A program made the position numbers and the translations under genes. From contig JALVQN010000139.1 in the NCBI GenBank assembly GCA_027025555.1, positions 1-32,259 of the forward strand: a stretch of DNA of 32,259 bases, in the 5' to 3' direction. Within the stretch, counting starts at the first letter, position 1; every line of letters begins with the position of its first letter. This document shows positions 10,517 through 14,644 of the stretch, piece by piece. The notes under the pieces were generated by a model, which was not told where the DNA came from, did not search any database, and was given only the letters and a program-made list of their open reading frames with translations. The DNA is from Desulfobacterales bacterium. Lineage in GTDB: Bacteria; Desulfobacterota; Desulfobacteria; Desulfobacterales; UBA2156.

Positions 10517-11434
10517 TCATTCGGGAAGGGTTGCCTTCATCCCCTTTTCGGCGTTCCCCCGGATAACCTTGCAGATGGAAACCTTGCCTTTCACCTTGAC
10601 CGCCTCGATCTTTCCGGAAATCTCCATTTCCTGATCCAGGACCTCTCCGGTATTGGGATCGCGGATGAGGGTCAATCGTCCCACATCAAAGACCTGCCCC
10701 TTGCTGACCCCTTCCCGGGTTCCCCTGTTGAGATAGACCTTCTTTCCCCTGACCATGATGACATCCCCGGTCCAGGGAATCTCTTCCAGTTTGGCAACGA
10801 GAAAGGCGACCCCTTCATCCACGGCCTTTTCAATGGCCTTTCCAGCGTTGGTCTTCTTGAACCCCCCGATGTCCCCGGAAAAGCCGCCCTTGGAAATTCC
10901 CAAAGAAAGGCCGGTCTTGGTGATCTTGCCGTAACACTTTTTCGAGGCAAGGACCTGGCCGGTACTCGAGTCGACGATATACATGATGGCGTTGACTTCG
11001 GCGGTGCCCCCACCGGCACCGATCCGAAAGCCCTTAAATCCGATCCCGCCTCTTCCGCCGCTGGTCCCGGGTTCGAAATGGGTGATATCGCCCTTAATGA
11101 GAAGCTGTGCCGGGGTCATCTGGCCGGTAACCACCTGTTTGCCGCCGCCCGCCGTCCGGCCGCTCGCCGCCAGATCCTGCTCGGCCATGGCCTCGCGACG
11201 CATCTCTTTTTCCCCCAGCACGATGAACCTGCCGGTGGCATTCAGGCTGTCCGTCAGGACGGCGCCCCAGGCATCCCCCAAATCCCATTGCCCGTGCCAT
11301 CCCGAGCGGTTTTTAAACTGGGTCACCATGATGGAATAGCGCATCCCCTTCTGCGCTGCCAGGCCGACACCGGCCGCGACCATCATCGCTGTGATAAAAA
11401 TCGTGACTGTCTGGATCATCCGTTTTGCTGTCAT
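10517..11434 (-). CDS. CsgG-family secreted protein with a FlgT-like C-terminal domain
   Basis: A 305-residue protein from the ATG at 11434, which has a clear GGAGG site 5 nt upstream. An in-frame start at 11500 lacks one. Residues 1-27 look like a signal peptide (VGLAAQKG), without the lipobox cysteine found in classical CsgG. The middle (about 30-215) matches the CsgG/HfaB fold in outline: an 'adjust to a named effector' N-strand, a Thr/Ser-Leu helix, a GRFIVLGE motif and IMYIVDSSTGQVLASKK. The C-terminal part (from about 225) has GKKVYLNRGTREGV, like the FlgT C-terminal domain. The exact function is unknown; an envelope or secretion accessory role is inferred. There are no curli genes nearby. 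Confidence 0.75.
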   Translation of the reverse strand: MTAKRMIQTVTIFITAMMVAAGVGLAAQKGMRYSIMVTQFKNRSGWHGQWDLGDAWGAVLTDSLNATGRFIVLGEKEMRREAMAEQDLAASGRTAGGGKQVVTGQMTPAQLLIKGDITHFEPGTSGGRGGIGFKGFRIGAGGGTAEVNAIMYIVDSSTGQVLASKKCYGKITKTGLSLGISKGGFSGDIGGFKKTNAGKAIEKAVDEGVAFLVAKLEEIPWTGDVIMVRGKKVYLNRGTREGVSKGQVFDVGRLTLIRDPNTGEVLDQEMEISGKIEAVKVKGKVSICKVIRGNAEKGMKATLPE

Positions 11435-11548
11435 GCCGTCCTCCGATTTAAAAGATGCATCTGAAGCAACTTTCACCCCACTTGGACCGTCTTTTATCAC
11501 AAGGAAAGGTCCCTTGCCCAGGCAAACCTGAAGGTGTCGGCAAAAAAA

Positions 11549-13426
11549 TCAGGTGCGGATTCGACGGGGTATCGCAAGGCTGAGATAAGAGTCGCCCTCT
11601 TCGGCCATCAAGCGCTTTTGCACCATCATCTTCAGAAACGAGAGCCCTTGTTCTTTGGATACGCCTTTAAAACGGGAAAAGATCTCTTGAAGGCTGCGCA
11701 CAGTATCGCAATACAAATAGATTGACCGGGAGGTTCCTTCCAATCGATGCGTCAGTGTCGGTGCATGGGGTCGCCGCTGCTGAATCATAAGAAAGGATCC
11801 GCCGTCCAAAAAGCTCAAAATAGGACCTTTCTCCGCTTTTCTGCGGAGGTGTTCGTAGTCTTTCTTCCATTTGATGACCCGTTCCTTCACGGGGCGCCAC
11901 AGGCGCCGTTGATGTGTCCGGTCCCCCCGGTAGGTTTGGATCATCAATGGGAGCGCCTTCGTCATCGCCTTCGGAAACAGGTATCCGTAGTTGGGGTGAT
12001 TCTTTATTCCCGAAACACCGAACGCCCCGGGATCCTCCCAGACCGGGCTTCCCCTTCCAAGCCAGAAGCCGACCGTCCGCAACGGGCGGAAGGGCAGTGC
12101 GAATTCCAAGAGTCGCAGGGTCTCTTCCACATCGGCTTGTTTGCTGGACGGGAAATACAAAATCAGGTTGGAAAGGCTGGTGATGCCCAGCGCCTCGCAG
12201 TGCTTCATGATCTCCAGATTCTTCAGGGCGGTGGTGCCCTTGTTCATTTTCCTAAGCAAGGGGGTGCTCAGGGCTTCGATTCCGATTTGAACCTCCCTTA
12301 CACCGGCCCTTTCCATCCTCTCCAGAACCCCTTTCGGCGTATCGGGCCGAATTTCACAAAAGAGATGATACTCCTTTCCCCGGGAAGCCAGGGTTTCAAA
12401 CAGCGTCTTCGACAGGCCCGGAGAAAGGATATTGTCCGTGAATGCCAAGGAAAGAATCCGGTGCTTTTCACTGAGATGGTCCACTTCCCGGGCCGCCTGA
12501 CGGGACCCCTTGGATCGATAGCCCCGCCATTGGAGGTTCAGGTTGCAAAAGGCACATCCCCGGCGCCCGCCGCGGGGCCCCTTTGTCTGACGGTGCCACC
12601 AACACCCCCTTGAGCCCTCCACGGGAAGGATGGGGAAGAAGCGACGCGTTACAGGCAGCCCTTTAAGGAGGGCAAAATAGTCGTCGTAATCGGGAGGGGG
12701 CAGGTCTTTCAGGTCCGGTAACTGATCGAACCCAAACACTTCTTCGTCTTTCGTGGATGTGGCTTTCGACAAGACCCCTCTGACCGAAGGAATACGCGGG
12801 GGCATCTTTTTCGGGTCAATCAAGTATTCCAGGATGCGGCCCAGCGGACGCTCGCCTTCTCCGTTGACCAGGAAATCGATTTCTGGAAAAAATTGAAACA
12901 GGGCTTCTCCGGAAAGCCCTGAAAAGGAAGACCCGCCCAGGACGATCTTGATTTGAGGCCTCCTTTTCTTGATTTGCCGGATGAAATATAAAGAGGCGCT
13001 GAGCTGGCACAGACAGGCGGAAAGACCCACCACATGAAGCGATTCAAGGGAAATTCCGTCAAGAATCTTCTCCGTAATCTTTTGAATCCGCTCTACAATC
13101 TGTGAAAAGGGTATCTTTTTGACCCGGGCGTTTTCGGATGCATGCCGTTTGAACAGGCGTCCGGCCGCCTCTTTTTTTTCTGGAAACATGAGGGCGGCGT
13201 AAATGGGTTCGGCAAGCCATGTCCGCTCGGAAAGCCCCTGATAGAGCGGATAGCCGATGGATGCGGCCACCTCCAGGTAGGCGTGGTAAGCCTTTACCTG
13301 AAGGCGGGGAAAACAGGTTTCAAGATAGGCCTTGAGGGTGGCAATCTGTATGGACGGCCTGTTGTAAAGGGGCCAGGGGGGAGAAATGAGGGCCACCCCA
13401 AGAGGATCGGGACTTTCGGACTTCAC
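11549..13426 (-). CDS. B12-binding radical SAM protein of the RiPP-maturation C-methyltransferase type (TIGR03975-like)
   Basis: A 625-residue protein. The N-terminal part contains a cobalamin-binding-like Rossmann region (about 125-205, with VLGGSSFSG and DFLVNGEGE). A radical SAM domain starts at SRGCWW (272-277). Family members have EGSRGCWW...C-FC-LN with seven residues between the first two cysteines. Here C275 and C291 are separated by 15 residues (Cx15Cx2C, third Cys C294) because of a Lys/Arg/Gly-rich insertion. Later motifs (VQIGIEALS, LGITSLSNLILYFP) fit the family. Members methylate unactivated carbons in ribosomal peptides, but no precursor peptide is visible here, so the substrate is unknown. 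It sits 16 bp after the cyclophilin-like gene, the last of a dnaN-led run. Confidence 0.82.
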   Translation of the reverse strand: MKSESPDPLGVALISPPWPLYNRPSIQIATLKAYLETCFPRLQVKAYHAYLEVAASIGYPLYQGLSERTWLAEPIYAALMFPEKKEAAGRLFKRHASENARVKKIPFSQIVERIQKITEKILDGISLESLHVVGLSACLCQLSASLYFIRQIKKRRPQIKIVLGGSSFSGLSGEALFQFFPEIDFLVNGEGERPLGRILEYLIDPKKMPPRIPSVRGVLSKATSTKDEEVFGFDQLPDLKDLPPPDYDDYFALLKGLPVTRRFFPILPVEGSRGCWWHRQTKGPRGGRRGCAFCNLNLQWRGYRSKGSRQAAREVDHLSEKHRILSLAFTDNILSPGLSKTLFETLASRGKEYHLFCEIRPDTPKGVLERMERAGVREVQIGIEALSTPLLRKMNKGTTALKNLEIMKHCEALGITSLSNLILYFPSSKQADVEETLRLLEFALPFRPLRTVGFWLGRGSPVWEDPGAFGVSGIKNHPNYGYLFPKAMTKALPLMIQTYRGDRTHQRRLWRPVKERVIKWKKDYEHLRRKAEKGPILSFLDGGSFLMIQQRRPHAPTLTHRLEGTSRSIYLYCDTVRSLQEIFSRFKGVSKEQGLSFLKMMVQKRLMAEEGDSYLSLAIPRRIRT

Positions 13427-13442: not shown

Positions 13443-13856
13443 TCAGGGTTTTAGCGGTGCGACTCGGATGAAAGCGCCGCTTTGGACCTCTTTAAGGACC
13501 CGCACGTCTTGATCCATGGTTCCAAAAACATTGACCGGAGAGTATGCCCGGGGCCGATCCGAAGTGCTCGCCGGTGTGGGGCCGAAGAAAATGCAAAAAG
13601 CCGGTCCCTGGGGCCAATATCCCAGATCCCCCACGTCCACCTCTTCCCGGGCATTTTCTTCCAGATCCATCTTAACGGGAATCGAAAAATAAATTTCTTC
13701 CCCCCACACTTCAACACGTCCTTGAACGGGAAGTATTTTCAGGATCCCGCCTGCCGTGGGGGTGTCGAAAAGCGTCGCGGTGAGCGTCTTTCCTTCCAGG
13801 GCGATTTGGATCTTTTGCACGGGTTTTGCGCTCCTTACTGTTTTTGAGGGCCTCAT
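13443..13856 (-). CDS. Cyclophilin-like fold protein (DUF369/TM1367 type)
   Basis: A 137-residue protein from the ATG at 13856. That codon overlaps the stop of the upstream thymidylate synthase gene as ATGA (13853-13856); an ATG at 13868 is the alternative. The sequence has the hallmarks of the small cyclophilin-like family: LFDTPTAGGILKILP, WGEEIYFSIPV, ENAREEVDVGDLGYWP and FCIFFGPTP. Structures of this family resemble cyclophilin, but isomerase activity is not established and the role is unknown. The overlap with the upstream gene and the 16-bp gap to the radical SAM gene point to co-expression with both. Confidence 0.85.
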   Translation of the reverse strand: MRPSKTVRSAKPVQKIQIALEGKTLTATLFDTPTAGGILKILPVQGRVEVWGEEIYFSIPVKMDLEENAREEVDVGDLGYWPQGPAFCIFFGPTPASTSDRPRAYSPVNVFGTMDQDVRVLKEVQSGAFIRVAPLKP

Positions 13857-14644
13857 GTTTTCAGGCATCGGAGTTTGGCCAACTCCTCCGCATAGCCGTA
13901 CAGATGCAAGCCTTTGCTCTCGACGATCATACCGCCGTCATTGACGCCGATCTCTGCGGCCATGTATTCTTTGAGGTTTTGGATGGCCGCCAAGTTGGCC
14001 GGCAAGCCGTTCCAGAGATCCCAGGATCGAAAATAGACGAAGAAGTAAAGGGCGCCGTCTTGAATGCGCGTGTCGATATGCCTTAGACAGGGGGGATCCA
14101 CAAGGGTATGATCCGAGGGGTGGGCCACCTGGAGGACAAGCTGGTTGTTCCGTTGGCCGAAACGACGGTAGGTGTCGATCACCCACTCGATCTGATTTAT
14201 AAAAAGCGTCTCACCTTCCCGAAACACCACCTTGCCGTCTTCTTCCCGTTTGTCAACAATCTCCTGCCGGTTTTCATTCCACCAGTTCAGTTTTTCGCCG
14301 GTGATGGGAACCCGGGTGAGCCGCTCCCCATAGGTATACGATTCTCCAGGTTCCCGCCTGGGAGACATGAGGTACTCGATGTAGGCCCGGTCATATCCCG
14401 GACCCCCGTAAATATAGTCCTGTTCCACGGGATTGGGGATGCCGCAGGTAGGCGGAATATCCGGAATCAGGGGTTGGGTCCCCGGATATTGAACGTGTCC
14501 GATAAAATAATCGTATTCCAAGCGGGTCTGGCCGGCATAGGAGCCCCGATCAATCTGAAAGCGTCTTCCCCTGTCCAAGATGTCATGAACCGCCTGGAAC
14601 CATAGATCCGGAAGGTCTCTGGCATAGATTGTATGGATGTTCAT
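13853..14644 (-). CDS. thyA: Thymidylate synthase (ThyA superfamily, archaeal-like)
   Basis: A 263-residue protein of about the E. coli ThyA length but with low overall similarity. The active-site set is complete and correctly spaced: nucleophile C186 in PPCL, R206-S207-x-D209, N217, and H247-x-Y249. The spacings equal those of E. coli C146, R166, S167, D169, N177, H207 and Y209. N217 (rather than Asp) favours dUMP over dCMP as substrate. The predicted reaction is dUMP plus methylene-THF to dTMP plus dihydrofolate, in the cytoplasm. It follows gyrB after 48 bp and overlaps the next gene by ATGA. The N-terminal third (YPGTQPLIPDIPP, YGGPGYDRAYIEYLM) resembles the archaeal form; this affinity is from memory. 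Confidence 0.83.
   Translation of the reverse strand: MNIHTIYARDLPDLWFQAVHDILDRGRRFQIDRGSYAGQTRLEYDYFIGHVQYPGTQPLIPDIPPTCGIPNPVEQDYIYGGPGYDRAYIEYLMSPRREPGESYTYGERLTRVPITGEKLNWWNENRQEIVDKREEDGKVVFREGETLFINQIEWVIDTYRRFGQRNNQLVLQVAHPSDHTLVDPPCLRHIDTRIQDGALYFFVYFRSWDLWNGLPANLAAIQNLKEYMAAEIGVNDGGMIVESKGLHLYGYAEELAKLRCLKT

Follow-up and report, generated by a model that had tools for sequence, protein, structure and literature searches.

On sequence grounds, the 625-aa protein encoded at positions 11,549 to 13,426 of the window, by which we mean the whole analysed stretch of 32,259 nucleotides (Desulfobacterales bacterium, contig JALVQN010000139.1), is a member of a coherent, uncharacterised subfamily of the PoyC kind. 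Our preferred reading, held tentatively and with somewhat less than even confidence, is that it represents a distinct, vertically inherited branch of PoyC-type (TIGR03975) C-methyltransferases which would act on a conserved protein or peptide encoded away from the enzyme gene. A search of a literature collection found no description of this branch, hereafter called the orphan clade. What makes it of interest now is the role in sulfate reducers of a PoyC-like enzyme encoded by a lone gene, not the Cx15Cx2C motif that had drawn attention in an earlier, sequence-only reading of this DNA. The argument draws on the following features:

11549..13426, minus strand: open reading frame of 625 aa with a GTG start, TIGR03975 B12-binding radical SAM enzyme of the orphan clade
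12836..13072, minus strand: B12-binding domain PF02310, residues 119-197, 34.4 bits against a cut-off of 32.1
12107..12571, minus strand: radical SAM domain PF04055, residues 286-440, 54.6 bits, above cut-off
12545..12604, minus strand: [4Fe-4S] motif C275-x15-C291-x2-C294, then NLNLQWRGYRSK (clade signature), read from the sequence
12557..12601, minus strand: WWHRQTKGPRGGRRG, the 15 residues between C275 and C291; a basic loop whose length varies from x4 to x21 in the clade
11567..11818, minus strand: C-terminal domain, approximately residues 537-620, a predicted winged helix of RRE/PqqD-like topology
13443..13868, minus strand: cyclophilin-like PF04126 gene, next upstream, beside the enzyme gene in this genome only
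10517..11500, minus strand: CsgG-domain gene, downstream, a neighbour conserved within genus and family only

The assignment to TIGR03975, the model for RiPP maturation radical SAM C-methyltransferases, which the sequence-only reading had proposed, was borne out both for this protein, where a profile search gave 377.2 bits against the curated cut-off of 281.85 with residues 11-619 covering profile positions 1-606 of 606, and across the clade. With PF02310 and PF04055 both above their cut-offs and C275, C291 and C294 present, the protein falls into class B, the B12-dependent radical SAM enzymes. The predicted B12 domain, the radical SAM domain with its three cluster cysteines, a conserved C-terminal winged-helix domain and the lone genomic context can be regarded as shown.

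TIGR03975 members were searched for in 58 relatives and in 395 genomes of Desulfobacterota, and their loci were retrieved. Within the phylum the scores are bimodal, with PoyC-like members reaching 576-662 bits and the orphan group 284-403 bits, and the former mostly carry Cx7Cx2C followed by GLNG whereas the latter share the signature CNLNLQWxGYRxK (C[N]LN.QW.GYR.K). The orphan group forms one clade against the PoyC-like members in an 88-sequence tree (100% SH-aLRT), and within it members from the same host family mostly cluster together. Because host families group in this way and strong copies mostly occur once per genome, the orphan clade looks like a maintained gene passed on vertically. 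The open reading frames are intact in the carriers. In one Desulfobacteraceae bin (L031:7939-9126) the ortholog is split over two frames, which could mean that the gene is broken or that the assembly is wrong here. Two genomes of a sister genus within the window's host family (G003 and G005; loci L051 and L050) are without the orphan enzyme and have a PoyC-like one instead; their DsrA scores are also lower, at 507-510 bits compared to 557-637 bits in carriers of the same family.

The sequence-only reading had described C275, a 15-residue Arg/Lys-rich stretch and C291 accurately, and the basic character of the stretch could be confirmed, but its view that Cx15Cx2C is in itself unusual is not supported. 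The PoyC motif is Cx7Cx2C (PMC11285071) and canonical members of the same phylum have x7 as well, for example CWWGKKSQC, with a few PoyC-like members deviating to x4 or x9. The spacing here is x15, and among 74 orphan-clade sequences it ranges from x4 to x21 (x4 in 27, x8-9 in five, x12-15 in 38, x17 in three and x21 in one). As two congeners (L034 and L035) show x15 at the equivalent site and a sister genus x13, the insert is genuine and no sequencing slip. Its sequence is unconserved between genera while its basic character is kept: K and R make up 32% of the insert versus 14% in the same proteins, and the mean net charge is +2.5 versus +0.34 in random windows, with 0 of 2000 random window sets being as positive, so that the basic character is not a matter of chance. 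In the full-length structure model, residues 263-305 around the cluster have a pLDDT below 50.

One could imagine that the departure from the PoyC spacing reflects an altered or lost cluster, resulting in changed chemistry or a dead enzyme. However, C275, C291 and C294 are invariant in all 74 orphan-clade sequences, the flanks SRGCWW and FCNLNLQW are invariant or nearly so across spacings from x4 to x21, and intact reading frames persist in the carriers, which makes this explanation highly improbable. Judged by the sequences, Cx15Cx2C is one value of a drifting loop and ordinary inside its subfamily, and the orphan clade illustrates how variable the distance between Cys1 and Cys2 of a radical SAM cluster site can become within one subfamily, drifting between 4 and 21 residues. 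Given this range and the x4 and x9 of PoyC-like members, the insertion is common in the orphan branch, a finding that the sequence-only reading had itself named as speaking against its proposal. Since the spacing varies within the clade, the insertion is uninformative on the substrate; the suggestion of a non-RiPP or distant substrate thus loses the insertion as its basis but keeps the lone, vertically inherited context.

For the last ~85 residues, the predicted order of elements is strand-strand-strand-helix-helix-helix-strand-strand with a terminal hairpin (pLDDT 85.5). In hhalign comparisons, the orphan C-terminal domain matched that of canonical members at 99.3%, the canonical domain matched PqqD at 95%, and the orphan domain matched PqqD at 79%, and the sequence shows the predicted domain to be a homologue of the one in PoyC-like RiPP enzymes. 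C-terminal RRE fusions have been described in proteusin enzymes by the authors of RRE-Finder (PMC7470986). As a Foldseek search with the domain returned generic winged helices (E >0.01), with no PqqD among the matches listed, we keep to the label "RRE-like", a fair description, rather than RRE.

Apart from a peptide substrate, methylation of a small molecule or lipid can be considered, as performed by HpnR, TokK and Fom3, with the C-terminal winged helix as a relic. The distant relatives of the protein found by profile search are indeed B12 radical SAM enzymes of various substrates, and RRE-containing enzymes have been recruited to non-RiPP pathways, where the RRE is possibly vestigial (PMC7470986). 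Yet many C-terminal residues are conserved throughout the clade (D541, G542, R561, S566, R567, Y570, L615, L617 and A618), unlike what a relic would suggest, and no neighbour from a small-molecule pathway is common to the lineages, so that we consider this explanation improbable, if less so than a lost cluster.

The preferred reading, action on an unlinked protein or peptide, draws much of its weight from the gene neighbourhood. The intergenic gaps measure 20 bp to the cyclophilin-like gene upstream of the enzyme gene and 52 bp to the CsgG-domain gene downstream of it, and hence leave no space for an adjacent precursor gene. Both the housekeeping nature of the neighbours and the lack of a linked precursor or other RiPP gene, as noted in the sequence-only reading, hold over 77 orphan-clade loci, with neighbours that differ by lineage. 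The dnaN-gyrB-thymidylate-synthase-like surroundings in the window are retained only within genus and family, and other lineages show FBPase-HtpX-EamA, MurI-LolA-ribosomal-S1-like or POR gamma (pyruvate-ferredoxin-oxidoreductase-type) genes, or further lineage-specific ones such as PurE, CobU-type, YjeF and CysZ-type genes, none of which is a RiPP gene. The thymidylate-synthase-like protein next to gyrB and dnaN (window 13853-14644), which is kept in genus and family, scores 90 bits with TIGR03283, below the cut-off of 174.

Individual neighbours were also considered as partners. The cyclophilin-like gene, whose co-occurrence the sequence-only reading had proposed to follow, is absent beside the enzyme gene in the congeners L034 and L035 and in a sister genus (L036), and being adjacent in this genome only, it lies outside the system. 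A conserved protein of 262-318 aa with a weak TPR match (cluster 368) is encoded directly downstream in 13 loci with Cx4 spacing from four host families (e.g., L085:10749-11603). Across the phylum it is also present in many genomes that lack the enzyme, and in other lineages it lies by purD/purE, a glycogen-synthase-like gene or dsrA (names read from the sequences, dsrA from the DsrA search), and it therefore seems to be a general neighbour rather than a partner. An 861-aa frame in L104 looked like a fusion of LolA with the enzyme; this was rejected, as the extension overlaps MurI and has no other match. In three related genomes, a conserved 115-aa protein is encoded 7-13 bp downstream of the enzyme (L022:9849-10193, L029:1618-1962 and L030:9888-10232), with no Pfam match for the L022 copy and no NCBIfam match for the L030 copy.

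It is also conceivable that the protein is an ordinary RiPP C-methyltransferase working in trans on a precursor encoded elsewhere, with a leader type outside the Nif11 and NHLP models. Its membership in TIGR03975 and the retained RRE-like C-terminal domain would fit, and several canonical PoyC-like loci of the same phylum are likewise without a recognisable adjacent precursor, so that the absence from orphan loci is weaker evidence than it appears. One locus, in contrast, is clearly a RiPP cluster in a Desulfobacterota genome (L137:4485-5684), where a tandem array of three precursors with Nif11 leaders and cores rich in Val, Ala and Thr immediately precedes two tandem PoyC-like TIGR03975 enzymes. 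The leader model from this positive control, which detected all three precursors there, found no Nif11-type precursor in the 77 orphan loci (1.22 Mb). Neither NHLP nor Nif11 matches occurred in any of the 17 carriers among 57 scanned relatives, and the loci from the window's own family hold no conserved short open reading frame close to the enzyme gene. Moreover, no protease, transporter or second maturase is common to the lineages in the 77 loci, and the vertical inheritance of a lone gene across many host families also speaks against this explanation. Taken together, we regard action in trans on a RiPP precursor as rather unlikely. Upstream of another PoyC-like enzyme, a 139-aa open reading frame (L140:6570-6986) resembles in part, by eye, a nitrile-hydratase-type leader; it has no NCBIfam hit and might be an unrecognised precursor.

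The distribution of the orphan clade offers a hint at physiology. In the phylum sample of 395 genomes, 55 from 26 host families are carriers. Of these 55, 53 have DsrA, compared with 190 of all 395 (Fisher p=1e-16, with kinship not fully controlled), and 52 have acetyl-CoA synthase CdhC, compared with 254 of all 395. The two DsrA-negative carriers are a 67%-complete bin and a genome whose congeners have DsrA. The clade looks almost restricted to genomes that have dissimilatory sulfite reductase, although many DsrA genomes are without the orphan enzyme. The correlation is real at the level of the phylum but is confounded by phylogeny and cannot be separated from it, since almost every genome of the order has DsrA, regardless of whether the enzyme gene is present. 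It is a lead to physiology and not to the substrate.

Returning to an enzyme acting on an unlinked protein or peptide, the chemistry can be sketched from the family. The 4Fe-4S cluster would cleave SAM, the resulting 5'-deoxyadenosyl radical would abstract hydrogen from a peptidyl side chain at an unactivated carbon, and methylcobalamin would donate the methyl group to that carbon. From the context, docking of the substrate would fall to the RRE-like C-terminal domain. As no precursor travels with the enzyme and whole host families keep the lone copy, the most likely substrate is a conserved protein, perhaps a small one, whose gene lies elsewhere, in hosts that would respire sulfur compounds via DsrAB. 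The stretch of x4-x21 between Cys1 and Cys2 would then be a surface loop next to the cluster that tolerates change, rather than a novel cluster site, and where it is long and basic it might, speculatively, let an acidic substrate or electron donor dock.

For genome mining, the consequence is practical, since annotation pipelines call the orphan branch RiPP maturation enzymes and thereby lead miners to seek peptides that are probably absent. If the substrate were indeed a housekeeping protein, this would be a bacterial addition to the very short list of radically C-methylated proteins, in the environmentally important group of sulfate-reducing bacteria.

Among known systems, PoyC and PoyB of the proteusins, which we take to belong to TIGR03975 in agreement with their shared Cx7Cx2C motif, are closest. 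The orphan enzymes share with this type the full-length profile match above cut-off, the domain order and the homologous C-terminal domain; they differ in their lower range of scores, in CNLNLQW instead of CGLNG, in a variable rather than mostly x7 spacing and in being encoded by a lone gene without precursor. TokK and OxsB, both structurally solved, are the best PDB matches, TokK coming first in a structural search with the full-length model despite its poor cluster region and OxsB ranking first in the profile search against the PDB. Similarity is low, with ~15% identity to TokK when the structures are aligned, and both differ by their small-molecule substrates and by leaving the C-terminal domain unmatched. 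A model for B12 radical SAM enzymes acting on a metabolic protein rather than a RiPP would be provided by Mmp10 and MgmA-type enzymes, which modify methyl-coenzyme M reductase (MCR). The match to TIGR04014, the profile for the glutamine enzyme among the MCR methyltransferases, is weak (31 bits against a cut-off of 360) and indicates a different family, and we know of no MCR substrate in the host bacteria of the orphan clade. One could nonetheless speculate, as a possible though doubtful extension, that the orphan enzymes are a bacterial counterpart of the MCR-modifying enzymes, namely PoyC-like maturases of sulfate reducers which would C-methylate a conserved central or respiratory protein via a repurposed RiPP recognition domain.
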